From an uncultured Verrucomicrobiales bacterium (GTDB lineage Bacteria > Verrucomicrobiota > Verrucomicrobiae > Limisphaerales > CANJSG01): DNA of 46,205 nucleotides. The first letter of the stretch is position 1, and each line of letters starts with the position of its first letter. The notes beneath the pieces were generated by a model, which was not told the DNA's origin, searched no databases, and saw only the letters and a list, made by a program, of their open reading frames with translations. The stretch lies in assembly GCA_946480965.1 (NCBI GenBank), contig CAMLMI010000002.1, forward strand, positions 1 through 46,205, in the 5' to 3' direction. Positions 3,137 through 31,777 of the stretch are shown one piece after another. The position numbers and the translations under genes were made by a program.

Positions 3137-3221
3137 CGGCGCGGAGCGCGCAGGCCGAGCAACGCCCCACGTCGGGCTGGCGGCTTGGGGTGTGATCGGG
3201 AACCATCCGGCCATCGCAGCG

Positions 3222-3953
3222 ATGAACCCACGCACCCTTCTCATCACCGGCGGCAACGGCGGTCTCGGCCAGGCCATCGCCCGGCAGTTCCTTCGCCAGT
3301 CGCCAGACGACTTCGTCTGCCTCGGCGTCCGGGAACGGCGCGACCAGGCGGACGCCTTGGCGCGGGAATTTCCTGGCCGGGTCGAAGCCGTGACGCTGGA
3401 AGTGACCGATCCGGCGGCATGGAAAACCGCCGTCGCCGATCTCGTCACGCGACGCGGCCGCATCGACGTGCTGGTGAACAACGCCGGCCACCACGAAGAC
3501 GCCCTGCTCGCGCAGATGCCGCCGGAGAGCTGGGACCGGGTGCTGCGGACGAACCTCGACTCCGTCTTCCACGGCTGCCAAGCGGTGTTGCCCACGATGA
3601 TCGCCCAGCGCTTCGGCCGCATCGTGAACGTGGCCTCGCTCAGCGCGCTCTTCTCCCCGGCGGGCCAGGCGAACTACGCGGCGGCCAAGGCCGGCGTGAT
3701 CGGCCTCACCCAGTCGCTGGCCAAGGAAGTCGCGCGCATCGGCATCACCGTGAACGCCGTCTGCCCCGGCTACATCGACACCGGCGCGCTCGCCGGAATG
3801 GGCCCGGAAGAGAAGAAGGCGGCCGCGCTGCGCGTGCCGATGCGGAGGCTGGGCAAGCCCGAGGAAGTGGCCGCCGCCGTGCATTTTCTCGCTTGTTCCG
3901 AGGCAGGCTACATCACAGGTTCATCCCTCAAAATCGACGGTGGCATCCTGTAG
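3222..3953 (+). CDS. fabG: 3-oxoacyl-ACP reductase-like SDR (FabG family)
   Basis: A 243-residue short-chain dehydrogenase/reductase. It has the N-terminal nucleotide-binding motif GGNGGLG (10-16), NNAG at 86-89, a catalytic Ser at 139 and the Y152-x3-K156 pair, ending in ITGSSLKIDGGIL as FabG proteins do. FabG reduces 3-oxoacyl-ACP with NADPH in fatty-acid synthesis. The next gene, 19 bases downstream, encodes an acyl carrier protein, which supports an ACP-linked substrate. A GTG at 3192 would add ten residues with no family match, so the ATG at 3222 is preferred. No other fatty-acid genes are adjacent, so this may be a specialised rather than a housekeeping FabG. Confidence 0.88.
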   Translation: MNPRTLLITGGNGGLGQAIARQFLRQSPDDFVCLGVRERRDQADALAREFPGRVEAVTLEVTDPAAWKTAVADLVTRRGRIDVLVNNAGHHEDALLAQMPPESWDRVLRTNLDSVFHGCQAVLPTMIAQRFGRIVNVASLSALFSPAGQANYAAAKAGVIGLTQSLAKEVARIGITVNAVCPGYIDTGALAGMGPEEKKAAALRVPMRRLGKPEEVAAAVHFLACSEAGYITGSSLKIDGGIL

Positions 3954-3972
3954 CGAACCCGATCCCAAGCGC

Positions 3973-4239
3973 ATGGCAGACGAACTCCGGCAGCAGTTGA
4001 AGCAGATGATGGTGGACAACCTGATGTTGCAGGTGACCGCCGCCGAGATCGGCGACGACCAGGCGCTGTTCGGGCCGGAAAGCCTCGGGCTGGATTCCGT
4101 GGATGCGCTCCAGCTCGTCGTGGCGCTGGACAAACACCACGGCCTGAAGATCCCCGATCCCGGCGTCGCCCGCGAAGTGCTCCAATCGGTCAACACCATG
4201 GCCGCAGCGATCGAGAAACACCGCGCCGGAACGCCGTAA
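3973..4239 (+). CDS. acyl carrier protein
   Basis: An 88-residue protein with the phosphopantetheine attachment motif LGLDSVDALQL, the Ser being the carrier site, within a typical four-helix ACP fold. The segment KHHGLKIPD corresponds to helix III. An earlier in-frame ATG at 3940 would overlap the fabG stop and add an unrelated leader, so the ATG at 3973 is chosen. It probably carries the acyl chain reduced by the FabG-like enzyme encoded immediately upstream. The motif DSVDALQL differs from the DSLDTVEL of the housekeeping E. coli AcpP, hinting at a dedicated pathway; this is inference. Confidence 0.88.
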   Translation: MADELRQQLKQMMVDNLMLQVTAAEIGDDQALFGPESLGLDSVDALQLVVALDKHHGLKIPDPGVAREVLQSVNTMAAAIEKHRAGTP

Positions 4240-4243
4240 TCCG

Positions 4244-4310
4244 CTCGTTCTCCTTCTCCTTCTCGCTCTCGGTTTCGATGGGGGAGTAACGGATCGAGAA
4301 GGAGAACGAG
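4244..4310. repeat. pyrimidine/purine-rich inverted repeat (15-bp perfect arms)
   Basis: The arm ctcgttctccttctc (4244-4258) is exactly complementary to gagaaggagaacgag (4296-4310). Beyond the perfect arms both sides continue as iterations of TTCTCC/TTCTCG-like hexamers (to about 4270, and 4311-4326 on the purine side). It lies downstream of the acp gene. It could act as an attenuating hairpin, but it lacks a clean T-tract, so I class it as a repeat. Confidence 0.7.
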
Positions 4311-4452
4311 AACGAGGCCGAGAAGGATTTTCCTGCGTCCAATTCACGCCTCCCGCGCGAACGTCACGCATGTCTTTCCAACTGAAGCTCGGGGAACTGC
4401 CTTGGAAGCCAACCGTTCCGCCCTCGGCATTGGCTTTGCTAGATCGGGAAGC

Positions 4453-5250
4453 ATGAATCCCAAGCTTGGTGCCCCGCGCCATCGTCGTGGTTCGTCATTG
4501 GTGGAGGTTGTCGTAGTGGTCGCGGTGCTGGTGGTGGGCGCAGGGATGCTATTGCCTGCGACCACCCGATGCGGTGGAAGGGCAAGCCGCATCTCCTGCG
4601 TCAACAACCTCAAACAAGTCGGCACGGCCTTCCGCCTTTTCGCCAACGACCATGCTGGCAAATATCCGTTCCAAGTCTTGGCGGAGCTGGGAACCAACCG
4701 GTCCGATGCCTTTCAGTTCGACCCTTTGGACACCAACGACCCGACGCAGATCTGGAAACTCTTCCAAGCCGTCGGCAATGAACTGAGTTCGCCGAAGATC
4801 CTGATTTGTCCCGAGGACTCCGACCGCGATGCCGCCATCGACTTCGGCCAAACTCGGGAACGGTCGAAGAAGAGCTTTGCCCATCCTTCCAATCGGGTGA
4901 ACGCCCTCAGCTACTTCTACGGCCTCAATGCCCATGACGACGACCCGAACCATCTCGTCGCCGGCGACCGCAACCTGACCACCGGCGGCACCGACACCGC
5001 TCCGCCCAAAGACTTGCTGACCGGCCGCGTCGATCTCGCCCGCTTCTCCCAAAACCCAAAGGACGTGGGCGGCCAGCTCCGTTGGGGCCTGGGTCTGCAC
5101 GACAAGGCGGGCAACGTCGGATTCTCCGACGGCCACGTGGAGCAGCTCACCTCCGGCAAACTCCGCGAATCCGTCGGCATGGCCATTTCCGCCAATCAAA
5201 GCTCCAACCAAGTCCTCTGGCTGCCCAATCTCCCGCAGGCCAAGCCATGA
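4453..5250 (+). CDS. pseudopilin-like protein with H-X9-DG motif (copy 1)
   Basis: A 265-residue protein of the prepilin-type family common in Verrucomicrobiota and Planctomycetota. After a short basic leader there is a prepilin-like junction (RRGSSLVEVVVVVAVL), where the +5 Glu and following hydrophobic helix match type IV pilin/pseudopilin processing. The C-terminus carries the H-X9-DG signature (HDKAGNVGFSDG). Such proteins are thought to be exported and assembled or anchored by the type II secretion/pilus machinery; substrates are unknown. The ATG at 4453 is chosen because it places the leader at a normal length. Its stop overlaps the start of copy 2 by ATGA. Confidence 0.82.
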   Translation: MNPKLGAPRHRRGSSLVEVVVVVAVLVVGAGMLLPATTRCGGRASRISCVNNLKQVGTAFRLFANDHAGKYPFQVLAELGTNRSDAFQFDPLDTNDPTQIWKLFQAVGNELSSPKILICPEDSDRDAAIDFGQTRERSKKSFAHPSNRVNALSYFYGLNAHDDDPNHLVAGDRNLTTGGTDTAPPKDLLTGRVDLARFSQNPKDVGGQLRWGLGLHDKAGNVGFSDGHVEQLTSGKLRESVGMAISANQSSNQVLWLPNLPQAKP

Positions 5251-6047
5251 ATGCCGCCCTTCGATCCAAGCCCCCTTTTCGCGACTGCCACGGCTTCACC
5301 CGATCCGAGATCGCCATCGTGGTGGTGATGCTGGTGGCACTCTTCGTATTGGTGGTTCCAAAGCTTCAAAGGGCCAATCAGCACGCCAAGCGCATCGGCT
5401 GTGTCAGCTGTCACAAACAGATCGGCACCGCTTTCCGTCTTTTCGCCAACGACTACAACGGCCGCTATCCGTTCCAAGTGCTCTCCGGCACCAATCCGCC
5501 CTCGGTGCTGCCTTGGGGAATCCCCTCGTTCGACACTAATGACGCCTCGCTGGTCTGGGCGCTCTACCAGTTCGCCGGCAACGAAATCAGTTCTCCCTAC
5601 ATACTGGTCTGTCCGTCGGACGCGGACCGCGCACGAGCCAAGGACTTCCGCGAAGGTTCCGAAACCACAAAGCGGAGCTTCTCCCATCCGTCCAAACGGC
5701 TGAACGCGCTCAGCTTCTTCTACGGGTTGAACGCCAATGAAGAGAGCCCGGACCACCTCGTCTCTGGGGATCGCAACCTTGTGGCCGGAGGAGCCGATGA
5801 CCAACCCGATGCCACCCTCCTGGCTGGAGCCACCGATCTCGTTCCGCTGATGAAAAGCCCAACCGGCTCTCAACTTCGCTGGGGCCGAGGCTTGCATGAT
5901 CGCGCCGGAAACGCCGGTTTCTCCGACGGCCATGTGGAACAACTCACTTCCTTCAAGCTCCGCGAGGCCGCCACAAACTCCATCACTGCGACCGGCGTCT
6001 CGAACAACGTCCTCTGGCTGCCCAACCTTCCCCCGGCCAAGCGATGA
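5247..6047 (+). CDS. pseudopilin-like protein with H-X9-DG motif (copy 2)
   Basis: A 266-residue close paralogue of the preceding gene. It has the prepilin junction GFTRSEIAIVVVMLVALFVL, then the shared core IGTAFRLFAND, NALSFFYGLNA and a C-terminal HDRAGNAGFSDG. Both copies have GTAFRLFAND, YPFQVL and VLWLPNLP, showing a recent tandem duplication. Start and stop overlap neighbouring genes by ATGA on both sides, so the three-gene row is probably translationally coupled. The protein also has a CVSC pair just after the hydrophobic helix, where copy 1 has only a single Cys. Confidence 0.82.
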   Translation: MNAALRSKPPFRDCHGFTRSEIAIVVVMLVALFVLVVPKLQRANQHAKRIGCVSCHKQIGTAFRLFANDYNGRYPFQVLSGTNPPSVLPWGIPSFDTNDASLVWALYQFAGNEISSPYILVCPSDADRARAKDFREGSETTKRSFSHPSKRLNALSFFYGLNANEESPDHLVSGDRNLVAGGADDQPDATLLAGATDLVPLMKSPTGSQLRWGRGLHDRAGNAGFSDGHVEQLTSFKLREAATNSITATGVSNNVLWLPNLPPAKR

Positions 6048-6355
6048 ACGTCTCCGCATCCAAGACGAAGAAGCCGCCGGCAGACTCCCATTTGCCGCTA
6101 CGGCCCCGTAGCGGCGAACGGGAGTTCGCCGCCACATCACCGGGTCGGCAAATGGGCGCAACTTTGTCCGAAACCAAATCGCTGGAATGGGGTTCGGAGA
6201 TGCATCGCCGCACCGGAAACATCGCCTTCAGCGATGGGCGGGTGCAGTCGTTGACCACGGAGACGCTGCGGGAAGCTCTGGCCAAGACGGGCGACACGAA
6301 CAACACGGTCTGGCTGCCGAACGCGGAGGCAAAGAAATCGCCCGGGACATTGTAA
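6044..6355 (+). CDS. truncated pseudopilin-like remnant (copy 3)
   Basis: A 103-residue frame, again starting with ATGA overlap. Its C-terminal half matches the ends of copies 1 and 2: HRRTGNIAFSDG (H-X9-DG), then a thr-leu-rich segment and NNTVWLPN. The N-terminal signal helix and core domain are missing. The first 40 residues are instead encoded largely by a palindromic element (6087-6156). It therefore looks like the 3' end of a third tandem copy whose 5' part was replaced by, or deleted around, a repeat. It may be a degraded gene or may still make a short protein; without a signal helix it should not be exported. Confidence 0.55.
   Translation: MNVSASKTKKPPADSHLPLRPRSGEREFAATSPGRQMGATLSETKSLEWGSEMHRRTGNIAFSDGRVQSLTTETLREALAKTGDTNNTVWLPNAEAKKSPGTL
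6087..6156. repeat. clover-leaf palindromic element inside the copy-3 frame
   Basis: Outer arms cccatttgccg (6087-6097) and cggcaaatggg (6146-6156) pair perfectly. Inside are two further perfect hairpins: ccgctacg/cgtagcgg (6095-6102 / 6107-6114) and cggcgaac/gttcgccg (6112-6119 / 6124-6131). Together they can form a three-way junction in single-stranded DNA or RNA. The element is read through in frame by the truncated pseudopilin-like gene. Confidence 0.8.
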
Positions 6356-6449
6356 AAGCGAACGGCGACGCGGGGCCGCAGTGTCCGGCCCGTCGCTCAT
6401 AGAGAGCGAACCGATTTTTCCCCAAACGCCAAGGAGCCCCAGGGAAACG

Positions 6450-6521
6450 CGGCCGCAACGGAGACGGGTTCCACTGAACGTCCGAAGGACCGGACGAAAC
6501 CGAACCCATCCGTTGCGGCCG
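6450..6521. repeat. long hairpin in the spacer after the pseudopilin genes
   Basis: cggccgcaacgga (6450-6462) pairs perfectly with tccgttgcggccg (6509-6521), and the stem continues inward with gggttc/gaaccc (6466-6471 / 6502-6507). The loop region holds a smaller cgtcc/ggacg pair. No T-tract follows, so it is not a classical terminator. It is directly followed by another inverted repeat at 6538. Confidence 0.7.
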
Positions 6522-6537
6522 TCACCTCAAGTGCGGA

Positions 6538-6619
6538 AACATTCAACGCCCAACGCTGAACGCCCAACGTCGAAGGAGAGCCACGCAGGCGCTCCGTTCG
6601 ATGTTGGGCGTTGAATGTT
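6538..6619. repeat. dispersed inverted repeat of the AACATTCAACGCC type
   Basis: aacattcaacgcccaac (6538-6554) is exactly complementary to gttgggcgttgaatgtt (6603-6619). Related sequence occurs at 24241-24341 and as a half element at 36168-36204, so this is a dispersed family. It ends 20 bases before the stop of the GHMP kinase gene on the minus strand and fills most of the remaining spacer. Confidence 0.78.
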
Positions 6620-6638
6620 CCGCGTTCGATGTTTCCGG

Positions 6639-7622
6639 CTACCCCTCCAGCACCGTCGTTCCCTGGAAATCGAAGCGGAAGCGCACCTCTTTCAATCCGG
6701 CTTCGCGCATGGTGTGGCGGAGCTTCGCCTTGCCTTCGTCGGCGTAGAACATGAGGAATCCGCCGCCGCCCGCGCCGATCAGCTTGCCGCCGAGCGCACC
6801 GTTGGCCATGGCCGCGTCATACCACTGGTCGATCTGGCCGTTGCTCATGTTGCCGCTACGTTCCTTCTTCCGCTGCCAATGCACGTCCATCAGCCGGGCA
6901 AACTCGCGCAGATCGCCCTTCTCCATTGCGGCGGCGCTCTTCAGCCCGAGGTCTTTGATGAAGTGAAGGTTCTCCGTCATCGCCTTGTCGTCCTGCTTCG
7001 ACTTGTCGTGCTGTTCCTTGAGGATGGACGACGCGGAGCGGCTGTAGCCGGTGAAGAAGAGCAGGAGGTTGTCCTCCAGGTTGAAGAGCGTCTCCTCCGA
7101 GATCTTCAACGGCCACGCCTTGACGTTGCCGTCCTTCTGGAACTCGAAGCAGGTGATCCCGCCGTAGGCCGCGATGTATTGGTCCTGCTTGCCGATGGGT
7201 TCGCGCAGCCGGTTCAGCTCGATGTAGCAGGCCTGCGCGGCGAGTTCGGAGGGATGGACGAGGTTCTTCTTGTGCGTGTGGAGCGCCTTGAGCAGCGAGG
7301 TGGTGAAGCTGCCGGAGGAACCCAGCCCGGTGCCGGCGGGAATGTCCGCCATCGAGGTCATCTCCAAGTAGGAACCGTCCACGCCCACGAGATCGAAAGC
7401 TTCGCGGATGATCGGGTGCTCGATCTCGGCGGCGGAAGCCACGCGTTCCAGCTTGGAATACTTCACGATCAGGTCCGGCACGAAGGTCTGGTGCAGGGTC
7501 GTGTAGATGTATTTGTTGATCGCCGCCGCGACGAGGAAGCCGCCGTGGCGCTCGTAGTAGGACGGGAGATCGGTGCCGCCACCGCCGAGGCTGATGCGAA
7601 GGGGGGAACGCGTGATGATCAT
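6639..7622 (-). CDS. GHMP-family sugar kinase, heptose-7-phosphate-kinase-like
   Basis: A 327-residue GHMP kinase most like D-glycero-D-manno-heptose 7-phosphate kinase (HddA type), which phosphorylates the anomeric carbon of heptose 7-phosphate. It starts MIITRSPLRISLGGGGTDLP, as these kinases do. It has the ATP-binding PAGTGLGSSGSF (motif 2) and the C-terminal GGKLIGAGGGGFLMF (motif 3). It is the last gene of the minus-strand sugar operon. Its ATG overlaps the stop of the four-helix-bundle gene by ATGA. No heptose isomerase, phosphatase or nucleotidyltransferase is nearby, so the substrate could instead be another sugar or cyclitol phosphate. Confidence 0.88.
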   Translation of the reverse strand: MIITRSPLRISLGGGGTDLPSYYERHGGFLVAAAINKYIYTTLHQTFVPDLIVKYSKLERVASAAEIEHPIIREAFDLVGVDGSYLEMTSMADIPAGTGLGSSGSFTTSLLKALHTHKKNLVHPSELAAQACYIELNRLREPIGKQDQYIAAYGGITCFEFQKDGNVKAWPLKISEETLFNLEDNLLLFFTGYSRSASSILKEQHDKSKQDDKAMTENLHFIKDLGLKSAAAMEKGDLREFARLMDVHWQRKKERSGNMSNGQIDQWYDAAMANGALGGKLIGAGGGGFLMFYADEGKAKLRHTMREAGLKEVRFRFDFQGTTVLEG

Positions 7623-8050
7623 GGGACGGAAAGGAAAGCGGAAAGCGGAAGGCGGGAAAGCGAAAACAAGAGGAGCACGGACACCACCGCCATTCTGGCA
7701 ATCCGGAGGCCTTTGGCTTTGCGGCCAATGGCAGTGAGAATGGCCAGAAGTTCGTTGGCTTCTTTCAACAACTTCTCCGTCTCGGCGGGATCTCCGAGGC
7801 CGGCTCCTCGGCAAATCTCCAACCAGTAGGCCGTCTCGGCCGCTTCCTTTTCCGCGATGCCGACCTTGTGGACGAAATCTCGCTTGGATTCGGCGCGGTT
7901 GGCCTCGCGGTAGTTGGCTCCCACGGAGGTTCCTGCCCGCAACAACTGACGTCCGACCTCGATCCCATCGACCGTCTTGGGAAACGTGCGGATGAACTTC
8001 ACCAATGTGATCGCGAAGTCGCGTGAGCGACCTTCCAGCTCCGTTTTCAT
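7619..8050 (-). CDS. four-helix-bundle protein of the 23S rRNA intervening-sequence family
   Basis: A 143-residue protein of the S23/IVP four-helix-bundle family. It has the recognisable segments IRTFPKTVDG, QLLRAGTSVGANYREA and ETAYWLEICRGAGL, ending in a helix with LLAILTAIGRKAKG. Family members are found in rRNA intervening sequences and as free-standing cassettes, and they are structurally related to Avd of diversity-generating retroelements; their role is unknown. The last 20 or so residues (LLLFSLSRLPLSAFL) are not part of the fold and are encoded by the GGAAAGC-type repeat arm. The stop overlaps the kinase start (ATGA). The gene interrupts an otherwise enzymatic operon and has repeat arms on both sides, suggesting insertion. 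Confidence 0.87.
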   Translation of the reverse strand: MKTELEGRSRDFAITLVKFIRTFPKTVDGIEVGRQLLRAGTSVGANYREANRAESKRDFVHKVGIAEKEAAETAYWLEICRGAGLGDPAETEKLLKEANELLAILTAIGRKAKGLRIARMAVVSVLLLFSLSRLPLSAFLSVP

Positions 8051-8143
8051 GGTTTGGCTTCCTTTGGGTTGAATCGCCGGAATCCGCGACGAGCGCTATC
8101 CGGCGGTGTTTCCGCTTTCCCGCTTTCCGCCTTCCGCTTTGCC
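7626..8143. repeat. inverted GGAAAGCGG/CCGCTTTCC arms flanking the four-helix-bundle gene
   Basis: The plus strand at 7629-7662 is a run of purine-rich variants (ggaaagcggaaagcgg and onward). At 8109-8143 the complementary pyrimidine run appears (tttccgctttcccgctttcc and onward). The two share a perfect 14-base core in inverted orientation (aaagcggaaggcgg). The arms bracket the IVP-type gene. The right arm supplies the last codons of the Gfo/Idh gene and the left arm the last codons of the IVP-type gene, so the whole 0.5 kb looks like an inserted cassette. Confidence 0.72.
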
Positions 8144-9112
8144 GTAAATCTTCTCCACCACGTTCAGCACCGCGCGCCCTTCCCTCAAGCCCGGCTCCGG
8201 CGTGCGGCCTTCGCGGATGTCGCGGAAGAACTCGTCCATCTCGATCCGCCACGATTCGTCGCCGCGCGGGTATTCGTAGATGGTCGTTTCCGGCGGGCCC
8301 ATCTGCGGCAGCATCTTGTAGTGGGTGAGCCGCTCGACGCCGTAGCTGCCGCCGAGGCCTTCCCAGTGCAGCTTCGCGTCGCGACCATAGATCTCCAGGC
8401 TGAAGAGGTTCTTCCACTCGGTGCAGCTGACGTGCAGCCACGCGGTCTTGCCCTCGGCATTGCGCAGGCTGAGGAACGCGTTGTCGTCCACCGGCATGTT
8501 CCAGAAGTAGGTCGCCGTGTGGCCTTCCACCGTGGCGAAGTCGCCGAGAAAGATGCCGGCCAAGTCGATCAGGTGGACGCCCTGATCGATGAGCTCGCCG
8601 CCACCGGCCAGCTTGGGATCCGCGCGCCACTCCTTGTCGTAGCCGATGCGTCCGCCCTGCCCGTAACGGCCGCGCAGGAACATGATCGGGCCCAACGCGC
8701 CGCTGCGGAAGATCTCCAGCGCCTTCAAGCACGCGGGATGGTAGCGGTGGTTATAGCCGATCCGGACCTGCACGCCGGTCTCCTGGGCGGCGGCGGCCAG
8801 CGCGTCGATCTCCGCGACGGAAATGGCACCGGGCTTTTCCAACAGCACGTGTTTCCCGGCGCGAACCGCTTGGAGCGCGATGGGCGCCAACGCGGCATTG
8901 AGCGTGGCGATCATGACCACATCCACATCAGCCGCGGTGACGGCCTGCTCCACCGAATCGGTGGCCCGGCAATCGGGACTCAGCGCGGCCAGTTCCTGGG
9001 CGCGGGCGAGGTTGAGATCGCAGGCGACGGTGACGCTGCCGCGCGGAAGAAGATTGAGGCGCTTGCGGCCGACGAGGCCGCAACCGATGAGGGCGACGCG
9101 AAGGTGGCTCAT
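8096..9112 (-). CDS. Gfo/Idh/MocA-family NAD(P)-dependent oxidoreductase
   Basis: A 338-residue oxidoreductase. The N-terminal Rossmann fold begins with VALIGCGLVGRKRL, followed by the family-typical GKHVLLEKPGA (the EKP motif) at about residues 85-95. The substrate-binding half contains GGGELIDQGVHLIDL, where the H-x-x-D pair fits the active site. Such enzymes oxidise or reduce sugar and inositol hydroxyls. The ATG at 9112 has a GGAG six bases upstream; an ATG at 9124 is also possible. It begins two bases after the SDR stop. The C-terminus (GKAEGGKRESGNTAG) is encoded by a repeat arm and is unlike normal family tails, consistent with insertion of the adjacent cassette. Confidence 0.9.
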   Translation of the reverse strand: MSHLRVALIGCGLVGRKRLNLLPRGSVTVACDLNLARAQELAALSPDCRATDSVEQAVTAADVDVVMIATLNAALAPIALQAVRAGKHVLLEKPGAISVAEIDALAAAAQETGVQVRIGYNHRYHPACLKALEIFRSGALGPIMFLRGRYGQGGRIGYDKEWRADPKLAGGGELIDQGVHLIDLAGIFLGDFATVEGHTATYFWNMPVDDNAFLSLRNAEGKTAWLHVSCTEWKNLFSLEIYGRDAKLHWEGLGGSYGVERLTHYKMLPQMGPPETTIYEYPRGDESWRIEMDEFFRDIREGRTPEPGLREGRAVLNVVEKIYGKAEGGKRESGNTAG

Positions 9113-18821: not shown

Positions 18822-19445
18822 ATGTTGCCGAGTTTCTTTTCGCAGGGCGGCCCGCTGATGTGGGTGCTCCTCGCGTTGAGCGCCGTGGGCCTGGCCGTCT
18901 TCATCGAACGCCAGCTCCACTACCACCGCGCCCAGATCAATGCCGCCGAGTTCCTCAACGGCGTCCGCAACGTGCTCAAACGCGACAACATCGTCGAAGC
19001 CGTCGCCATCTGCGACGCCACCGCCGGTCCCGTGCCGCGTCTCGTGAAGGTCGCCGTGCTCAACCGCGAACGCGGCCGCGAGGGCGTGCGCCAGGCCCTG
19101 GAGGACGCCGGGTTCCTCGAGGTGCCCAAGCTGGAGAAACGGCTCAACATCCTCGCCACCGTGGCCCACATCTCGCCGCTCGTCGGGTTGCTCGGCACGG
19201 TGCTGGGCCTGATGAAGGTCTTCCGCGAGCTGGAAGCCGCCGGGCTCATGGCCAGCGTTTCCAGCCTGTCCACCGGCGTCTGGGAAGCCCTCATCTGCAC
19301 GGCCGGCGGCCTCGTCGTGGCGATCGTCGCCTACGGCGGCTACAACTTCCTCGTGGGCCGGGTCAACGCCATCGTCCTCGACATGGAGCAGGCTTCGACC
19401 GAGGCGTTGAACCTGGTGACGGAAAGCTCCGGCTCTGCGGAATGA
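18822..19445 (+). CDS. exbB: MotA/TolQ/ExbB proton-channel family protein
   Basis: A 207-residue inner-membrane protein. One transmembrane helix lies near the N-terminus (MWVLLALSAVGLAVFIER). A cytoplasmic region follows, and two helices near residues 105-170 contain the family core ATVAHISPLVGLLGTVLGLM and a Thr in CTAGGLVVAIVAY. ExbB forms the pentameric channel that uses the proton gradient to energise outer-membrane processes with ExbD and TonB. It starts a four-gene operon (ExbB, ExbD-like, TonB-like, zinc-ribbon) with 4-bp or near-zero spacings. TolQ is an alternative name; neighbours favour the Exb type. Confidence 0.9.
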   Translation: MLPSFFSQGGPLMWVLLALSAVGLAVFIERQLHYHRAQINAAEFLNGVRNVLKRDNIVEAVAICDATAGPVPRLVKVAVLNRERGREGVRQALEDAGFLEVPKLEKRLNILATVAHISPLVGLLGTVLGLMKVFRELEAAGLMASVSSLSTGVWEALICTAGGLVVAIVAYGGYNFLVGRVNAIVLDMEQASTEALNLVTESSGSAE

Positions 19446-20104
19446 AATTCCCGCGCAACGTGAAGGTCTTCCGGGGCGAGCTGAACGCCGCGCCGTTGGT
19501 CTCCGTGTTTTTCCTGCTGGTGCTGTTCGTCGTCCTGACGGGCCTCGTTTACACGCCCGGCATCCTCATCCAGCTCGACCCCTCGCCCTCCGGCACCAAC
19601 GCCGTCGCCGCCGTCATCGGCGTCACGCGCACGGGCACCGTGCGGATCATGGACGGGGAGTTCCCGGGCGACGATCTGGCGGGCATCCGCGACCGGCTGG
19701 CCGCTTTGCCCGAAGGCACGGCGGTGCGGGTGGAAGAGGAGATCGGCGCGCCCAAGGATCTCGCGCCGTCCATCCGGGAACTCGTCCGCAACGCGGGCCG
19801 GATCGAGCTGCCGGTCCTCTCGGGCCGGTTTGGCGGCACGGCGAACCGGACGGTGGCCGTGGCGATGAACTTTTCCGGCCAGCTCTTCTACGAGAACCGC
19901 CGCGTGTCCGAGGACGAGCTGCGCATGGCCCTGAGCAAGGCCGTCGGAGCCCGGCCCGATCCCCTCACGCTCGTCGTCCTGGCCGATCGCGCGGTGGACA
20001 ACGGCGCCCTCATGCGCCTGAGCGCCGTGGCCCGCGAGGCCGGCATCCGCGAGCTGCTGCTGGCCGCCCTCCCCGGCACCTTCGAATCCAGCCGAATCCG
20101 TTAG
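19442..20104 (+). CDS. exbD: ExbD/TolR-like biopolymer transport protein
   Basis: A 220-residue single-pass membrane protein that overlaps the exbB stop by ATGA. A short cytoplasmic N-terminus precedes one transmembrane helix (VSVFFLLVLFVVLTGLVY, about residues 21-38). The periplasmic part is about 180 residues and ends with the ExbD-like pattern LVVLADRAVDNGALMRL and AREAGIREL. The usual ExbD transmembrane helix carries an essential aspartate (LIDIMLVLL); here that position has no Asp, which is unusual. The periplasmic domain is about twice the normal length and seems to contain two related halves. It acts with ExbB as the force-transducing stator. Confidence 0.8.
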   Translation: MKFPRNVKVFRGELNAAPLVSVFFLLVLFVVLTGLVYTPGILIQLDPSPSGTNAVAAVIGVTRTGTVRIMDGEFPGDDLAGIRDRLAALPEGTAVRVEEEIGAPKDLAPSIRELVRNAGRIELPVLSGRFGGTANRTVAVAMNFSGQLFYENRRVSEDELRMALSKAVGARPDPLTLVVLADRAVDNGALMRLSAVAREAGIRELLLAALPGTFESSRIR

Positions 20105-24554: not shown

Positions 24555-27188
24555 CTAGGATCGGAGCTGTTTTGCGACCGCCTCGGACAACGACCGGATG
24601 CCATAGGGCTTCGGGAGGAAGGCCACGGGGAGATCGTCGGGGGCGGGATCGGGTTCCTGGCCGGAGGCAAGGATGAGCTTCACCCGGGGATGCGCGGCGC
24701 GGACCTGGCGGATCAATTGGCGGCCGTCCATCCCGGGCATGTTCAGGTCGGTGATGAGCAACTCGACGGGGGGCAGGGCGGGGTCGGCCAAGCGGGCGGC
24801 GACGGCTCCGGGATCGGAGATCAATTCGCCCTCGTAGCCGAGGCGCTTCAGCATGGCGGCTCCCACGCGGCCCACGGCCGGTTCATCGTCCACCAGCAAC
24901 ACGCGCTGGCCCCGACCCAGGGTTGACTCCTCGGACCGGGCCTCAACCTGCGCTTGGGCGCCTTCCGCCGGCTCGAAGTAGATGCGGACGGTGGTGCCGC
25001 GGCCTTCGGCGCTGTCCACCGCGATGGCCCCGCCATGGTCCTGCACGATGCCGAGCACGACGCTGAGGCCGAGGCCGGTGCCCTGGCCGGGCGGCTTGGT
25101 GGTGAAGAAGGGCTCGAAGACGCGGGCCAGGGTGGCGGCGCTCATGCCGCAGCCGGTGTCGGAGACTTCGAGCACAACCTTCGGCCCTTTCTTCAGCGGC
25201 GGATGGCGGCGGACGAACTCGTCATCGACCGGACGCAGGTGCAGCGCGATGGACAGCTTGCCGCCGTGGGGCATGGCGTGGGCGGCGTTGTGGCCGAGGT
25301 TGAGCAGCACTTGGCCGATACGGGTGCGGTCGGCGAGGACCGGCGGCAGGCCGGGATCGCACTGGACCTCGATGGCCACGCCGCTGCTGAGGCTCGCGCG
25401 CAGGAGCTTCCGCGATTCCTCGACCACTTCCGCCAAGGCGACGGGTTCGAGCGTGTTCTTGCCGGCGCGGGCGAAGGTGAGGATGCCCTTCACGACCTCG
25501 GCCGCCCGATGGCCGGCGTGCTGGATCTCGCGCACGGCTTCCGTGGATTCGGCGTCGGCCGCCGTCGCCTCCAGCAGGCTGGCGTGTCCGAGGATGGGCG
25601 TGAGGAGATTGTTGAGATCGTGCGCGATGCCTCCGGCCAGCGTGCCGAGGGCCTGCATCTTTTCGGCCTGCCGCTGTTGCTGCTCGACCTCGGCGCGGCG
25701 CGCCTCGGCCTGGACGCGCGCGGTCACGTCGCGCAGCACCAGCACGTCGGCATGGCCACCCCGGCGAGTTGACGATTCCATGTAGCGCAGCGAACCGTCG
25801 GCATGGCGCAGGCGGTGCACCTGGCGATCAGCCGCGCCGTTGCCCCGGGACGCGGAGGAATGCGCGGCGTCCGCCGGAGCCAGGTCCTCAAGGCGCCGTC
25901 CCGTCAGCGCCGAGGGCTCCAGCCCCAGCCAATGGCGGCTGTTCGGGCTCGCGTAGGTCACGGTGCCCGCGTCGTCCAGCTCCAGCACCAGATCGTCGGA
26001 GTTCTCCACCAGATGGCGGAAGCGCCCTTCGCTCCGCACCAGCGCCCGCTCGGCCCGGTGCTTCTGCCGCAGCACGAACAGCAGGCCTAGGATCAGCGCC
26101 GTGAGCGCGCCGAAGACACCCGTGACCGCCAGCACCGCCGCCCGGTGCTCGCTCCAGAGCGTGGGCGGGCGGTTGACGAACTCGCAGCCCGCAGGCACCC
26201 GCGATTCCGGGATGCCGAAACGCCGCAGCGCCTGCACGTCCACCACCGAGCGGTAGCGCGGCACCCGCTGCACCGGAATGGACGCCACCGGTTCTCCGCC
26301 GAGGATGCGCACCGCCATCTTGGCGGCGTCCTCGCCCTGGAAGGCCGCGTCCACCATCACCCCGCCGAGCCCGAGCCCGCGATACGTCGGCCACTGCATC
26401 GGGTAGATCGGCACCTTCGCCCGCCGTTCGATCTCCGCGATGTAGTCCTGCGCGCGGGAAAACCCGCTGAAGAGGATCACCGAATCCTCCGGCATCGTCT
26501 CCAGATGCGTGAAGAGCTCCTGCGCGTTGAACCCACTGAAGAGCTCCACCCGGGGCGACGCCCCCTGGAACGGCAGCACCGACTCCACCGCCGCCACCTC
26601 GCCCTCGCTGTCCGGATCGCCCCGCACCACCACGATGCGCCTCAGATGCGGCTGGAGCGTGAGGGCGAACCGCGCGTTGGCCCCCGGATCCATCCGCTCG
26701 ATCACGCCCGTCACGTCCGGCATCGAAGCCGCCCGCTCCTCGGAAAAATCCTCCACCCCGCAGAACACCACCGGCGTGTGCGGGAAGAGCTGCTCCCGGT
26801 GCTTCAGGCCGAACTCCAGGCCCGACTGGTCGAACAGCATCACCACCCGCCATGCGTTCGTCCCGTATTTCTCCAGCAACGCCGGGATGATCCGCTCCTT
26901 CTGCGCCGGCGTCGTGAACCGCACCAGGTCCAGATACTCCACGTCGATCTGCACATCCGGCCGCTCCCGCCGCAGCACCGACAACGCGCCGTCGATCTCC
27001 GCCTGCTGCCAGTAATGCCCCGAGTGATACGACGACAACACCAGCACCCGGGGCGGCTCCTCCGTCGCGGCCACCAGCGCCCAGGCACCGAAAACCCACA
27101 GCCACAGCCACAGCATCCGGACACGGACCTGCACCCCGCGCCCGCGCGCGAAAGCTCCGCCCGCCTTCCATTCTCGGGGGACCGCCAT
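24555..27188 (-). CDS. hybrid histidine kinase with periplasmic binding-protein-like sensor
   Basis: An 877-residue hybrid sensor. The order is: N-terminal signal or anchor ([15 protein letters not shown], about 27-41); an extracytoplasmic domain of the ABC-substrate-binding-protein type (about 46-320, [32 protein letters not shown]); one transmembrane helix (about 349-373); a PAS domain (about 384-491); a HisKA domain with His523 in [12 protein letters not shown]; a HATPase domain with DTGCGM and GTGLGLSVV; and a receiver domain with Asp814 in [13 protein letters not shown] and Lys860. All catalytic residues are present. The ATG at 27188 has GAGG six bases upstream; the in-frame TTG at 27200 is less likely. 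The ligand and output partner are unknown. Confidence 0.93.
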
Positions 27189-27373
27189 CGATGGCCTCAA
27201 TGTGAAGCAGCCCCTACCTTCGGCAAAGCCTCTTCGCCCCCCAACCCCGTCGCTTCTGTGGACGACACCGCCGACTTTTCAAATCGCCTCATGGAGAAAC
27301 CATCGACAGTCCCGTTTCCCGCCTAAGCCGGAACGACGACGTTGAGACAATGGGAGAGGGCGGCATCCGCCGC

Positions 27374-27501
27374 TGTAGGACAGTGCTTCCAGCCTGTCCC
27401 GCGAAGTCTCGGTGGAGCCACCAAACGGTGGGTCTGGTGGACGGGATGGAAATCTCCGGATTCTCCACTCTCCACGGGGACGGCTGGAAGCCTGACCTAC
27501 A
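27374..27501. repeat. imperfect inverted repeat (TGTAGG...CCTACA)
   Basis: tgtaggacagtgcttccagc (27374-27393, continuing to 27400) pairs with 27476-27501 (gacggctggaagcctgacc and onward to cctaca) with a few bulges. It occupies the first part of the 614-base spacer 27201-27814, in which no gene was found. A second, larger element follows at 27551. Confidence 0.72.
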
Positions 27502-27550
27502 ATCAACCTGTCCGAAAGAATTCAAAGACCGACCGAAGCTCACGGGATTC

Positions 27551-27783
27551 AGCCCGGAGGGCTGGCAGAAGGCAGCCGGAGGTCGCAGGGCAGCGGAGAC
27601 CTCCGGTAGAGCACCTCGCACGAAAGCACTCCGGCGGGGTGCTAGCCCGCTCCCTGTCCGTCACCACACCCTCAGTCTCGTTGATTTCTGGCATCCCTCG
27701 GGGATGCGTCCCGTCTTGTTGCGGGTTCCGGAGGTCTCCACTGCATTACAACCTCCGGCTACCGTCTGAAAACCCTCCGGGTT
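27551..27783. mobile_element. MITE-like element with 56-bp imperfect terminal inverted repeats
   Basis: The 56-base left arm (27551-27606, starting agcccggagggctggcag) is complementary to the right arm (27728-27783) at about 45 of 56 positions. The interior of about 120 bases carries a perfect small palindrome, gcatccc TCG gggatgc (27691-27707). No transposase or other convincing gene lies inside, and no target-site duplication was established. It may be a non-autonomous mobile element or a large palindromic repeat. Confidence 0.6.
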
Positions 27784-27814
27784 TCAGGACCGATCCACTT
27801 TTCTAGACCGTTTC

Positions 27815-30463
27815 TTACGGCCGCGGCGCCCCCTGCTGCTTTGCGATGTCCTCATCCGAATGCACGCGGTTCCCCGCCGGATCGATAATGGTCGGCGTGA
27901 TCAGGACGAAGAGGTGTTTCGTGACCTTCTGCTGGGTCTTCGTGCCGTCGGCCGCTTCGACCTCCTGTTCATCCTCCGCCTTGAGCCCGCCCAGCAGCAG
28001 CGATTGGCCGTCCCAAACCACTGCAGAGGCCTCGATGGTGAGGGAGCGTATCCGGGGCAGCGGCAACACACCTGTGTTCGGTTCCGCCGCGCCAGCGGTT
28101 CCCTGCGGAACGAACGCGCCGGGATCGTCATAGCCAAGGAACTTCGAGGAATTCGCTTTGACCATCAGCCAAATCGAAAATCCGTCGGACCTAACCTCGG
28201 GAAGAACATCCAGCACCGGACCAAAGGGAACATTCGTCGTCTGATAGTTGATGGCCCGGTCGGAGCCATCGGTCACACTCACGCCCGCCACGACCGTCTT
28301 CATGTCCTGGACCGCGATTTGGGCCTGCATGCCGCTCAAGGTCGTCACCTTTGGACTGGCCACGATCGACACCTCCTTCTGTTGCTCAAGTTCCTTGAGC
28401 AAGCGCCACCCCTGCGGAGCCGTCAGGACCGAGGCGCTATGTGTCGTCTCGCTTTCGATCCGGAAGTTCTCGTTGGTCCTCTTCAGCCCGGACCAATCGG
28501 GCAACACCGGCCCGGGCTCGAACGGCTTGCCTCCGACCGGATGCGGACTGAACACGGGCCATTCCTTCGCCAAGGCCTTCATGCCCTCGTCGGTGATCTC
28601 GATCCACTTCGCTTCGATCGTGATCTGGGGTGGCGAGATGTTCAGCACATCGATGGCCGTTTGCAGAAGCTCCAGATCCGCGGCGGCGGCTCTCACCATG
28701 AGCAAGCCTGTTCGGTCGTTGAAAAACATGGCCTTGGGCGGCGTCAGATCCACCCCGACTGCGGTGAGATACCTTCTGATCAAACCACGCGTGTCCACGC
28801 CGTTTTCCAGCTCTTTCCGGAACGCGTTTGTGTCAATCACAGCGCCCTTGAACACGGGAACCTCCATGACGTTTTCAAGCCCCTGCACGAACGTGTTGGG
28901 GTCCACCTTGAAGGTCCGTGTGATCAGGCCGGTGTCCGCCTGTCCAGCCGGTGCTGGATCTGCGAGGAGAAGCCCGTTGTTTCTCAGGATCTCCGAGAGC
29001 CCCAGCATCTCTCTCGCATTCAAACGCGCCAGGAACAGTCCGCCTCCAGAGTCGTAGTTGATCGCCTGCTCCGCCAACCCATCGAGGTTCATCTTCCCCA
29101 TCGCGTTAGTGATCTGAAAACCAACCACCAGGCCTAGCGGCAGTCCGAAATGGGCGAAGTATTTTTGCAGGGCGGCCGCCCGCTCTCTTGCCCGCAAGGA
29201 CGCCGTCCCTGTAGGAACCGCTGCCACCAGTTCGTTCCACGAAACCCCGGTCGCCTGCTGAAAACTGACCGCAAACTTGTAGGGGTCCACCTTGAAGGAC
29301 CGTGTGATCAAGTTGGTGTCCCGGGAATTCGCCGTCGCTGTCTCGGTGCTTTCGTCCTGTCGAAGAATGTTGCCCGCCTGTTTCGCCGGCGATTCGCCTC
29401 CCGTGCGGCACGCGCTCAGGCCTGTCATCAACACCGCCGCCGCCAGCAAGGCTCCAGCGCTCCAGCGCCATCCAGCTTTCGGCAAAGCCGGCGGCGTGTC
29501 CGGGGAATCGAGCAGCCGCTCCACGCGCTGGCCGAGGTCCGAGTGGTAGCCGTCGCCCGCCGCCGCCAGCACCGGCCACGGCGCAACTCGGCCGGGCTTC
29601 GCGGCCAAGGCCACCAAGGCTTCGGCCAAGCTGCCTTCCACCGGACCCGTCAGACGGCTGGCTTCGTCGGCCGCGAATTCGCACGCGCTGTGCAGCCGTC
29701 GCCGCACCAGCCACACCGCCGGATGCCACCAGAGCAGCGCCGCCAGCACTTCGCCCACGCAGCGCCAGAGCGCGTCCAGCGACGCGACGTGTGCAAATTC
29801 GTGCGCCAGCACCGCGCGTTGCTGCTGCGGCGGAAACTCGGCGACGAACGGCTCGGGCAGACACACCACCGGCCGGAACAGGCCGAAGGTCATCGGCGAC
29901 GCCACGCTGCCCTGGCGCAGCTCCGGCGTCCGCTTCAGGCCCAGCCGTTCCCGCACTTCTTTGGCCAAAGCGAGCAGCTCCGTGTCCCGCACCGGCTGCA
30001 ACCGCCGCCGCACGAGCGGCAACAATCCCAGCGCCAACCCGCATCGGGCCAGCAGCAGCGCCACACCGCCCATCCAGACCAGGGCCAACCAGCCCGCCAC
30101 ACGCTCACCCGAGGTCGTGGCCTCCAACAGCGGCTGCGCGGTCAAGGTCACGGTTGGGACTGCGATGCGTTGGGCGGAGAGCGGCGTTGGCGGCAGATTC
30201 GCCGGGGCAAGCGACGGAGCGGACGCCGCTGCTTCCGCCTTCGGCGCTTGAGTCCATATCGGCTCCACCAGCACGCGGGCTCCGAACCATTCGGCCACGG
30301 TCAGGCCGAGCAACAGCGTCGCCGCCGCGATCCACACGGCGCGCTGCGTCTGCGCACGTCCGGTTCGCCGCGACACCAGCTCGGCCAAGGCCACGATCAT
30401 CACCGCCGACAGGCCGAGGCCGAGGAGGGTCACAAACAACGGATTCCAGTCGCTCGGATTCAT
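27815..30463 (-). CDS. M56 (BlaR1-like) metallopeptidase fused to a secretin-like region
   Basis: An 882-residue fusion. The N-terminal 350 residues are a BlaR1/MecR1-type M56 membrane protease. Hydrophobic helices lie at about 8-30, 42-60, 123-150 and 334-350. The zinc motif HEFAH is at 221-225 and the distal acidic motif CEFAADE at 261-267. After the last helix, about 530 residues follow instead of a penicillin-binding sensor. Two repeats of an S/T-F-K-V-D-P motif (388-394 and again 130 residues on) resemble secretin N-type modules. The C-terminal region (ITIEAKWIEI, VSIVASPKVTTLSGM, HLFVLITPTIID) matches secretin-family signatures. The start overlaps the blaI-like stop by ATGA. By BlaR1 topology the secretin-like part should be periplasmic and act as sensor. 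A lipobox-like L-S-A-C lies at 349-352. Confidence 0.85.
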   Translation of the reverse strand: MNPSDWNPLFVTLLGLGLSAVMIVALAELVSRRTGRAQTQRAVWIAAATLLLGLTVAEWFGARVLVEPIWTQAPKAEAAASAPSLAPANLPPTPLSAQRIAVPTVTLTAQPLLEATTSGERVAGWLALVWMGGVALLLARCGLALGLLPLVRRRLQPVRDTELLALAKEVRERLGLKRTPELRQGSVASPMTFGLFRPVVCLPEPFVAEFPPQQQRAVLAHEFAHVASLDALWRCVGEVLAALLWWHPAVWLVRRRLHSACEFAADEASRLTGPVEGSLAEALVALAAKPGRVAPWPVLAAAGDGYHSDLGQRVERLLDSPDTPPALPKAGWRWSAGALLAAAVLMTGLSACRTGGESPAKQAGNILRQDESTETATANSRDTNLITRSFKVDPYKFAVSFQQATGVSWNELVAAVPTGTASLRARERAAALQKYFAHFGLPLGLVVGFQITNAMGKMNLDGLAEQAINYDSGGGLFLARLNAREMLGLSEILRNNGLLLADPAPAGQADTGLITRTFKVDPNTFVQGLENVMEVPVFKGAVIDTNAFRKELENGVDTRGLIRRYLTAVGVDLTPPKAMFFNDRTGLLMVRAAAADLELLQTAIDVLNISPPQITIEAKWIEITDEGMKALAKEWPVFSPHPVGGKPFEPGPVLPDWSGLKRTNENFRIESETTHSASVLTAPQGWRLLKELEQQKEVSIVASPKVTTLSGMQAQIAVQDMKTVVAGVSVTDGSDRAINYQTTNVPFGPVLDVLPEVRSDGFSIWLMVKANSSKFLGYDDPGAFVPQGTAGAAEPNTGVLPLPRIRSLTIEASAVVWDGQSLLLGGLKAEDEQEVEAADGTKTQQKVTKHLFVLITPTIIDPAGNRVHSDEDIAKQQGAPRP

Positions 30464-30843
30464 AGGTCCTTCTTTTTGTCCGCGATGAGTTTCTCGATCC
30501 GGGCCAGCTCCTTGGCGCTGACCTTGCGGTCCTTCAACAGGTGGCTGACGAGATCGGCCACGCTGCCCTGGAAGAGCCGCTCCAGCAGGTGGCTGGTCAT
30601 GCCCTGGTTGACCTGCTCGGGCTGCACCTCGGCGCGGTAGATGAAGGTGCGGCCCTCGCTGCGGTGGGAGACGAGCCCCTTCTCCTCCATCCGCCGCAGG
30701 AGCGTCGCCAGCGTGGTGTAGGCGTGGTCCCGGGTGCCCAGCGCCTCGTGGACGTCCGCCACCGATGCCTCGGTGCGGGACCAGAGAAACTGGAGGATGC
30801 GATGCTGGAGATCGCCCAATCGTTGGATCCTTGGCTCTGCCAT
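30460..30843 (-). CDS. BlaI/MecI/CopY-family repressor
   Basis: A 127-residue winged-helix repressor of the penicillinase-repressor family. The N-terminal DNA-binding part reads RIQRLGDLQHRILQFLWSR, with the recognition region YTTLATLLRRMEEKGLV. The C-terminal part is the dimerisation helix region with Glu-rich segments, where BlaR1-type proteases cut in the characterised system. The ATG at 30843 is the conserved start. A palindromic site lies 17 bases upstream of the start. It is coupled to the M56 gene (ATGA), the normal order for BlaI-BlaR1 systems. It is probably autoregulated. Confidence 0.93.
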   Translation of the reverse strand: MAEPRIQRLGDLQHRILQFLWSRTEASVADVHEALGTRDHAYTTLATLLRRMEEKGLVSHRSEGRTFIYRAEVQPEQVNQGMTSHLLERLFQGSVADLVSHLLKDRKVSAKELARIEKLIADKKKDL

Positions 30844-30859
30844 AATGAACGACAGTCGT

Positions 30860-30879
30860 AATACTACTATTGTAGTATT
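30860..30879. promoter_or_regulatory. BlaI/MecI-type operator
   Basis: aatactac TATT gtagtatt is a perfect eight-base palindrome around four bases. It contains TACTAC-N4-GTAGTA, the same layout as the known MecI/BlaI operators. It lies just upstream of the repressor gene, overlapping where its promoter should be. Confidence 0.88.
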
Positions 30880-30943
30880 GAACGCAAGGCCGAATCGTTC
30901 GCGGCTCCAGATCTTTGAGGATGGTCCAGGGCGTCGCTGGCTT

Positions 30944-31777
30944 CTACCGTCGGCGTGCGCTGGGATCGCTCGTGGGCGGCGGGGCCAAGTCGGTGGCCGC
31001 ACGGGGGCCGAGGAGTTCGGTCAGCACGGGATTCAGCGCGTCGGCCCAGAGCTGGTAGGCCTTCACGGAAAGATGGAGGCCATCGACCGTCATGCCTTCG
31101 AGCGGCTTTCCGTCCGCGTCGCCGAGGCGGCCGGAGAGATCGAGGAACCGCAGGCTCCTTCCATCGGCCAAGTCCGAGAGCCGCTGGTTGATCGCGCGGA
31201 TGGTGGCGACATGGGCCGGCTGGCCCGAGCCGGTCTTCCGGGGCGTGATGCCCATGAGCACCACGCTGGCCTTGGGTGCTTTCTCGCGGATCACGGCCAG
31301 CATGGCGCGAATGCCGTTCACCACCTGGTCCACGGTCTCGACATCGGCCTCGGGCTTGGTGGCGTTTTCATCGCGCAGGTTGTTGGTGCCGGCGAGGAGC
31401 ACGATCGCCTTGGGGTTCACGCCGTCGAGTTCGCCGTTCTCCAGTCGCCAGAGGATGTTCTCCACGCGGTCCGCTCCCCAGCCGAAGTTGCCCGCGTTCC
31501 AGCCGTGGAAGTTCGTCTGCCAGTTTGCGTAGAAGTCGCGGTAGGCCGCGTCGCTCGTGCCCCAACGGCGCGTGATCGAGTCGCCGACGAAGTAGAGGTC
31601 GATCCGGCCGGATTTGGCCTTCACCAGCAGTTCTTCGTGCGCGAGACGCGAATTGGCGTCGGAGCGCGGCACGCCTTTCACGGGGGATGCAGCGGTGGCG
31701 GTTTCCGCCGCTTGAAGGAACGGAGCGAACGCCAGTGAAGCGGCGATGCACGCGGAGCGGAGCAGTCGTGGGAACAT
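30944..31777 (-). CDS. exported SGNH/GDSL hydrolase
   Basis: A 277-residue secreted esterase-like protein. The signal peptide (about residues 1-23, ending LQAAE) is followed by the SGNH blocks: GDSITRRWG with Ser67, NAGNFGWGADRV, LLAGTNNLRD and the C-terminal DGLHLSVKAY with the catalytic Asp/His pair. It is most like platelet-activating-factor-acetylhydrolase-type GDSL enzymes, which in Verrucomicrobiota and Planctomycetota act on acetylated glycans or lipids. Its tail after LLGPRAATDL is low-complexity proline/serine/arginine. It is a single gene, with the DUF1080-ThuA pair divergent to it. Confidence 0.88.
   Translation of the reverse strand: MFPRLLRSACIAASLAFAPFLQAAETATAASPVKGVPRSDANSRLAHEELLVKAKSGRIDLYFVGDSITRRWGTSDAAYRDFYANWQTNFHGWNAGNFGWGADRVENILWRLENGELDGVNPKAIVLLAGTNNLRDENATKPEADVETVDQVVNGIRAMLAVIREKAPKASVVLMGITPRKTGSGQPAHVATIRAINQRLSDLADGRSLRFLDLSGRLGDADGKPLEGMTVDGLHLSVKAYQLWADALNPVLTELLGPRAATDLAPPPTSDPSARRR

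Follow-up and report, generated by a model that had tools for sequence, protein, structure and literature searches.

A membrane protease of the BlaR1 type that carries a secretin-like region where a penicillin-binding sensor would be expected raises the question of what such a protein could sense. The gene encoding it lies in a 46,205-nt stretch of DNA from an uncultured Verrucomicrobiales bacterium (assembly GCA_946480965.1, contig CAMLMI010000002.1, positions 1 to 46,205), the whole of which is referred to here as the window. A sequence-only reading of this DNA had proposed that a complete M56 protease, a secretin-type C-terminal half, a coupled BlaI-like repressor and a palindromic operator form a signal chain that may respond to an envelope or secretion state rather than to beta-lactams, and this interpretation is partly supported. 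The fusion is one of a recurrent family rather than a single odd gene, and the pair is a variant of the BlaR1-BlaI kind: recurrent, well conserved and close to a closed loop, with a stripped secretin as its probable input domain.

The gene pair and its protein domains

The fusion gene (27815..30463, minus strand) encodes 882 aa, and its start codon overlaps the stop codon of a blaI-like gene (30460..30843, minus strand) in an ATGA. The 127-aa repressor is a winged-helix protein with a strong Pfam match to Penicillinase_R (PF03965; 3e-31, 108.6 bits against a cut-off of 22.6), and its relatives in the Protein Data Bank (PDB) include MecI (1sd6, 2.4e-7) and the "Penicillinase repressor" 1sd4 (1.9e-5). 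A longer open reading frame (ORF) starting with GTG spans 30460-31002; because it would run through the operator, blaI is likely to start at the ATG at 30843. The putative operator is a perfect 20-bp palindrome, AATACTAC-N4-GTAGTATT (30860..30879), whose exact TACTAC-N4-GTAGTA core, as had been read from the sequence, lies at 30862-30877 and occurs once in the window even when up to 2 mismatches are allowed. The expectation by chance is a mean of 0.03 per window, with 3 of 100 shuffles containing one. The palindrome ends 18 nt before the blaI start and adjoins a GDSL lipase gene.

In the fusion protein, Peptidase_M56 (residues 23-290, 4.3e-26) and Secretin (692-836, 5.6e-14) both pass their curated Pfam cut-offs. 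The protease half is complete, as claimed: the zinc protease and transmembrane part (29594..30397; this and the following features of the protein are on the minus strand) contains the HEFAH zinc motif at residues 221-225 (29789..29803) and the distal zinc-ligand region E262..D266 (29666..29680). The H, E and H of the former and the E and D of the latter show no variation across two alignments of 28 and 29 fusions (57/57). A fourth transmembrane helix (29408..29464) ends in a lipobox-like LSAC (349-352). Beyond it, no penicillin-binding family was found by Pfam at E values up to 1; the secretin stands in the place of that sensor.

The secretin assignment, which had been made for residues 380-880, holds by profile and by predicted fold for approximately 512-865 and not for the remainder. 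Predicted models of the C-terminal half resemble secretins rather than an unrelated fold, aligning with secretin structures over 508-863 of the whole protein and over 160-513 of a separate C-terminal model. An N3-like domain (residues 512-610, 28634..28930), which starts ITRTFKVDPNTF and whose predicted models match secretin structures, is followed by the double-barrel core with both gate regions (611-865, 27869..28633), and the two together are recognised as a secretin (PF00263) by profile and predicted fold alike. Residues 353-511 adopt no confident fold in either model. They contain a second ITRSFKVDP motif with 10 of 23 residues identical to the first, and a possible second N-domain at 386-510 is of low confidence in both models. 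A PHROGs search with the C-terminal half returned a filamentous-phage secretin (8.4e-9) as its sole match.

Parts that accompany this core in other secretins are missing or shortened. Secretins are described as spanning the membrane chiefly through the lip, with the amphipathic loop, their most conserved sequence, as a further membrane contact (PMC6532946, PMC6155069, PMC7545093). Among the relatives described below, a loose VPxLGDxPxxG pattern is present in 63 of 63 stand-alone secretins vs 22 of 57 M56-bearing proteins, and it is absent from the clade of the window protein; in the window protein itself, loop 823-848 (27920..27997) occupies its place. The lip start of the LGF[D]W or LGFDWYLG type is retained in 53/63 stand-alone vs 10/57 M56-bearing proteins, and the lip region has a median length of 93 aa in the 63 stand-alone vs 55 aa in 53 fused proteins (P0046, P0074, P0097 and P0107 are omitted from this alignment). 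In the window protein the shortened lip covers residues 622-679 (28427..28600), 58 aa that are polar and partly of low confidence. Because the motif associated with outer-membrane insertion is missing and the lip is short, the window protein is not simply a whole secretin serving as a sensor.

Recurrence of the fusion and its operator

In the order to which G002 belongs, 146 genomes were searched and 120 gave matches to the query at E values of at most 1e-20, with many of the listed matches spanning the secretin end alone (677-874); a whole-phylum search of 387 genomes, in which two candidates per genome were scored, was uninformative. Relatives were drawn from a list of 120 of the 198 proteins found (7996 scored), with domains taken from precomputed Pfam lists, and M56 and secretin are joined in one protein in 56 of these 120. 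An HExxH rule divides the same 120 into 57 M56-bearing proteins (of which P0097 has no listed secretin) and 63 stand-alone ones. A rescan of 57 proteins chosen for having both domains (the window protein replacing P0001, 55 other fused proteins, and P0122) found both in 57/57. The window fusion has a nearly identical counterpart, P0001, on a different contig that may come from a related sample. An error of assembly joining two genes was rejected as very unlikely, given the recurrence of the joined ORF and this second copy.

The neighbourhood was surveyed at 40 M56 places from 37 genomes, picked from the matches by similarity to the query. Secretin scores in the same ORF are at least 100 bits in 30 loci, 30-100 in 8 and below 30 in 2, and not all 40 are clear fusions because 10 score under 100 bits. 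A BlaI gene lies upstream on the same strand in 37 loci and the other three run off the contig, so that BlaI is present in 37 of the 37 with upstream DNA. With the window included, an operator of at least 10 of 12 matches is found upstream of blaI in 35/38 loci vs 0/1694 control pieces from the same loci, the search zone reaching from 150 nt ahead of the blaI start codon to 20 nt inside the gene. No such site is found at L097, L113 and L114, whose BlaI proteins diverge most (46-60 bits). Both the BlaI neighbour and the operator are recurrent in relatives. Seven loci (L077, L080, L082, L084, L088, L099, L100) have M56 genes with a weak or no secretin match and carry BlaI and the operator wherever upstream DNA is available; their C-terminal halves are possibly decayed secretins or other sensors.

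Recognisable operator copies elsewhere in the relatives' genomes are few. In the 146 genomes the exact palindrome occurs at 19 places in 18 genomes, 15 of them just upstream of a BlaI gene. Three of the four sites away from BlaI (L119, L129, L130) lie inside ORFs, and the fourth (L128) falls within the 5' portion of a GH39-matching ORF. At L120 (around 1501), one of the 15, a BlaI gene with an exact operator has no M56 gene within the flank covered, and the operator separates BlaI from an ORF in divergent orientation, 64 nt away, that matches PQQ_2 (BamB-type). The tandem operator, searched at up to 3 mismatches in 34 genomes, gave 35 distinct places, of which 33 are at blaI (31 in the surveyed loci plus L115 and L118), against 17 hits for a backward control. 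One of the remaining two, at G492:C52, is inside a 2-phosphosulpholactate phosphatase ORF and was taken as chance. Neither of the two lies at a stand-alone secretin listed in the 146-genome search. As far as such matches can indicate, the recognisable regulon in the relatives' genomes is mainly the pair itself, and there is little sign of a stress regulon because operator near-matches are nearly confined to the blaI-M56 pair; a single genome has one other credible target.

No third conserved gene of the operon was found, since no other family stands beside the pair in more than 4 of the loci: three families recur in at least 3 loci, one of which, seen in 11, consists mostly of the frame antisense to blaI, while the others (3 and 4 loci) occupy varying places. 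Downstream of the protease gene in the window (24555-27200, minus strand) is a hybrid histidine kinase that combines PAS and response-regulator domains with a sensor of the ABC_sub_bind type; nothing recurrent is found at this position in relatives. A 414-aa ORF at 18860-20104 (plus strand) has an ExbD/TolR match at its C-terminal end. A scan of 27500-31000 found no sigma-70 promoter.

The role of the secretin-derived domain

The explanation favoured here, to which we assign a probability just above one half (about 0.52), is that the two genes form a self-repressing signalling unit with the secretin-derived domain as its input, arranged as one homeostatic loop. The conserved operator and gene order suggest that BlaI, bound at the palindrome, would repress both blaI and the fused protease gene. 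The fusion protein is expected to reside in the inner membrane like BlaR1, with its zinc protease, a fold supported by modelling, facing the cytoplasm. The C-terminal half, consisting of a secretin N-domain and gated core, apparently minus the parts by which secretins enter the outer membrane, would be periplasmic. There it may dock on, or compete with, the PilQ-like secretin rings of the cell or another envelope machine, and either event would change the state of the protease. By analogy with BlaR1, which is reported to cleave BlaI directly (PMC9834060), the protease would then cleave BlaI and the pair would be made in larger amount. We infer each of these elements (repression, BlaI cleavage, periplasmic location and the signal from an envelope machine), as we do the lipidation at LSAC considered below. 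The main output would be more of the same fusion protein, because almost every recognisable copy of the operator in the relatives is at the pair; the protein is therefore probably sensor and effector in one loop.

Several points weigh against this explanation or narrow it. The role of the secretin-derived domain as signal input is a proposal, and the sensing, the ligand and the partner are all putative. Secretin rings consist of about 12 to 15 subunits. BlaR1 is described as a dimer (PMC9834060), and the two arrangements have no obvious fit. The VPxLGDxPxxG motif, which is in place in the EpsD/GspD alignments, is equated with the amphipathic loop by position and conservation. The 22 of 57 M56-bearing relatives that keep it may be membrane-inserting secretins, and for this reason the reading for the window may not hold across the family. 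The tree does not show a single origin of the fusion: a FastTree phylogeny of 140 rows unites 62 stand-alone copies in a single group (support 0.888) and places P0117, a short row named stand-alone, among the fused proteins; in a 75-row subsample without P0117 the fused label needs 3 changes, and one clade is not rejected (p-AU 0.242). The exact palindrome is not more frequent than its backward control (19 places against about 99), indicating that it is not enriched as such and that only its position is. The 34 genomes of the tandem search were chosen for containing the pair and are all drafts, the near-match searches are blind to weak or altered operators, and the scope of the regulon is that of the relatives' genomes. 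A fully closed loop is also challenged at G429:C110 (L161), where an ORF that begins at 2527, exceeds 800 aa and contains a PATR (autotransporter-type) repeat is preceded by a double TACGACC/GGTCGTA-type palindrome at 2471, ending 36 nt ahead of the ORF's first ATG, and is a credible second target of BlaI.

The fusion could instead be a working secretin that regulates itself, forming its own ring in the outer or inner membrane while M56 and BlaI set its dosage, so that the domain would be an effector and not a sensor. The near-confinement of operator matches to the pair would suit such a protein, as would the preserved barrel core and gates, and 6 of the 22 relatives with the loop motif also have the LGFDWYLG-type lip start. 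In the window protein and its four closest relatives, however, no loop motif is left and the polar lip measures 55-58 aa, and the domain is tethered to an inner-membrane protein through the fourth helix. We consider this explanation unlikely. The tether itself would be lost if signal peptidase II acted at LSAC, in which case the secretin-derived domain would leave as a lipoprotein and may reach the outer membrane, and the cut may switch the protease off. A pattern LSAC-x-TGG-[ED]SP is kept in the window protein and P0001-P0005 while the surrounding helix varies, and the best PDB sequence match is BfpB, a lipoprotein secretin by its PDB name. In the same linker, just after the fourth helix, BlaR1 is reported to be cut by the signal peptidase SpsB, a cleavage proposed to switch the protease off (PMC9834060). 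The pattern is nevertheless found in 6 of 92 rows, all of the window clade (L100 and L103 have only a Cys in a similar place), so a cut at LSAC cannot be the mechanism of a family whose other fusions lack it, and we regard lipoprotein release as rather unlikely. A signal peptidase I site after helix 4 was rejected as a family feature, AxA-like triplets being present in 78/92 rows at helix 4 vs 72/92 at helix 2.

It is improbable that the secretin domain is an inert leftover, a passive extension of a protein in which the M56-BlaI part alone matters. The great variation in length (653-1543 aa, some of them fragments) and in the middle regions of the fusion relatives, together with the ten surveyed loci whose M56 ORF matches secretin weakly or not at all, would fit a passive domain. 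Against this, an alignment of 41 proteins, some fused and some stand-alone, has 13 invariant core positions, one of 28 fusions has many more, and a secretin domain of at least 100 bits is kept in three quarters of the loci (30/40). Most remote is a beta-lactam receptor like BlaR1, or an artefact that joined two genes: the protease half and BlaI do resemble the bla system, but the missing penicillin-binding domain argues against the former and the recurring ORF against the latter.

A broader proposal is that such proteins belong to a class of envelope-machine mimic receptors, in which M56 proteases carry retired trans-envelope subunits as decoys that report the assembly state of the real machine, and control hardly anything beyond their own BlaI-dependent synthesis, the dose of decoy thereby regulating the machine. 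The pieces would be the secretin core and sometimes SecDF-P1, Wza-type export, YscJ/FliF ring or ExbD/TolR domains. Extra domains in the 57 rescanned fusions (E up to 1e-4) are SecDF_P1_head (4), ExbD (3), Poly_export (2), Thioredoxin_7 (2) and YscJ_FliF (1), along with TPR and HEAT repeats. Among the examples viewed in full, SecDF_P1_head, Poly_export, YscJ_FliF, Thioredoxin_7 and the ExbD of P0080 pass the Pfam cut-off, and the ExbD matches of P0114 and L103 fall below it. We consider a class of this kind doubtful. At L103 (G494:C227, ORF 2383-8622), the M56 ORF exceeds 2000 residues, has Poly_export and adjoins blaI, with its secretin match also below the cut-off. Between P0002 and P0003, the first 300 residues are 92-100% identical and the last block 98%, while the 50-residue blocks of 301-700 are 30-74% identical, a pattern that may reflect the exchange of a sensor cassette or else a chimeric contig in the metagenome.

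Relation to known systems

The BlaR1 and MecR1 systems of Staphylococcus and Bacillus share with the window pair an M56 domain with HExxH and a distal E, an adjacent BlaI- or MecI-type repressor and a palindromic operator. They differ in having a C-terminal penicillin-binding sensor where the window protein has its secretin-derived domain. No beta-lactamase or penicillin-binding protein gene was found beside the window pair and no neighbour recurs in relatives; the near-exclusive placement of the operator at the pair itself is a further difference. M56 proteases are also fused to TonB_C, HEAT, WD40, LRR and ankyrin domains (some of these names are presumed from Pfam accessions), sharing the protease and lacking a secretin as C-terminal domain. 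Type II secretins (GspD/EpsD) retain VPLLGDIP as well as a lip or cap region of considerable length, whereas the window protein does not. The closest stand-alone relatives of its C-terminal half are verrucomicrobial TPR-secretins of the Amuc_1098 (PilQ) type, which differ in having TPRs, no protease, and the lip and loop motif kept. The Amuc_1098 family NF042912 is the best NCBIfam family for the window protein (77.8 bits), for 4/4 stand-alone proteins (333-370 bits) and for the 3/3 further fusions tested (222-326 bits); none of these scores reaches the family's cut-off of 750. Amuc_1098, named PilQ, is described as a TPR-secretin of 907 residues that exceeds all other outer-membrane proteins of A. 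muciniphila in abundance (PMC4960237). No description of an M56-secretin fusion was found among open-licence papers, where the matches (among them PMC9834060, PMC7593790, PMC12578637 and PMC4960237) concern BlaR1, other secretins or unrelated matters.

The M56-secretin family is recurrent and probably verrucomicrobial, with the protease and repressor of the BlaR1-BlaI kind and operator near-matches almost only at its own promoter, and it offers a testable case of a pore subunit turned regulator. The BlaR1-BlaI system is known as an antibiotic-resistance switch; if the interpretation favoured here is true, this family would show the same switch also serving envelope machines of Gram-negative bacteria. 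It points at how the PilQ-like secretins of the phylum, including Amuc_1098 as portrayed in PMC4960237, may be watched or dosed.

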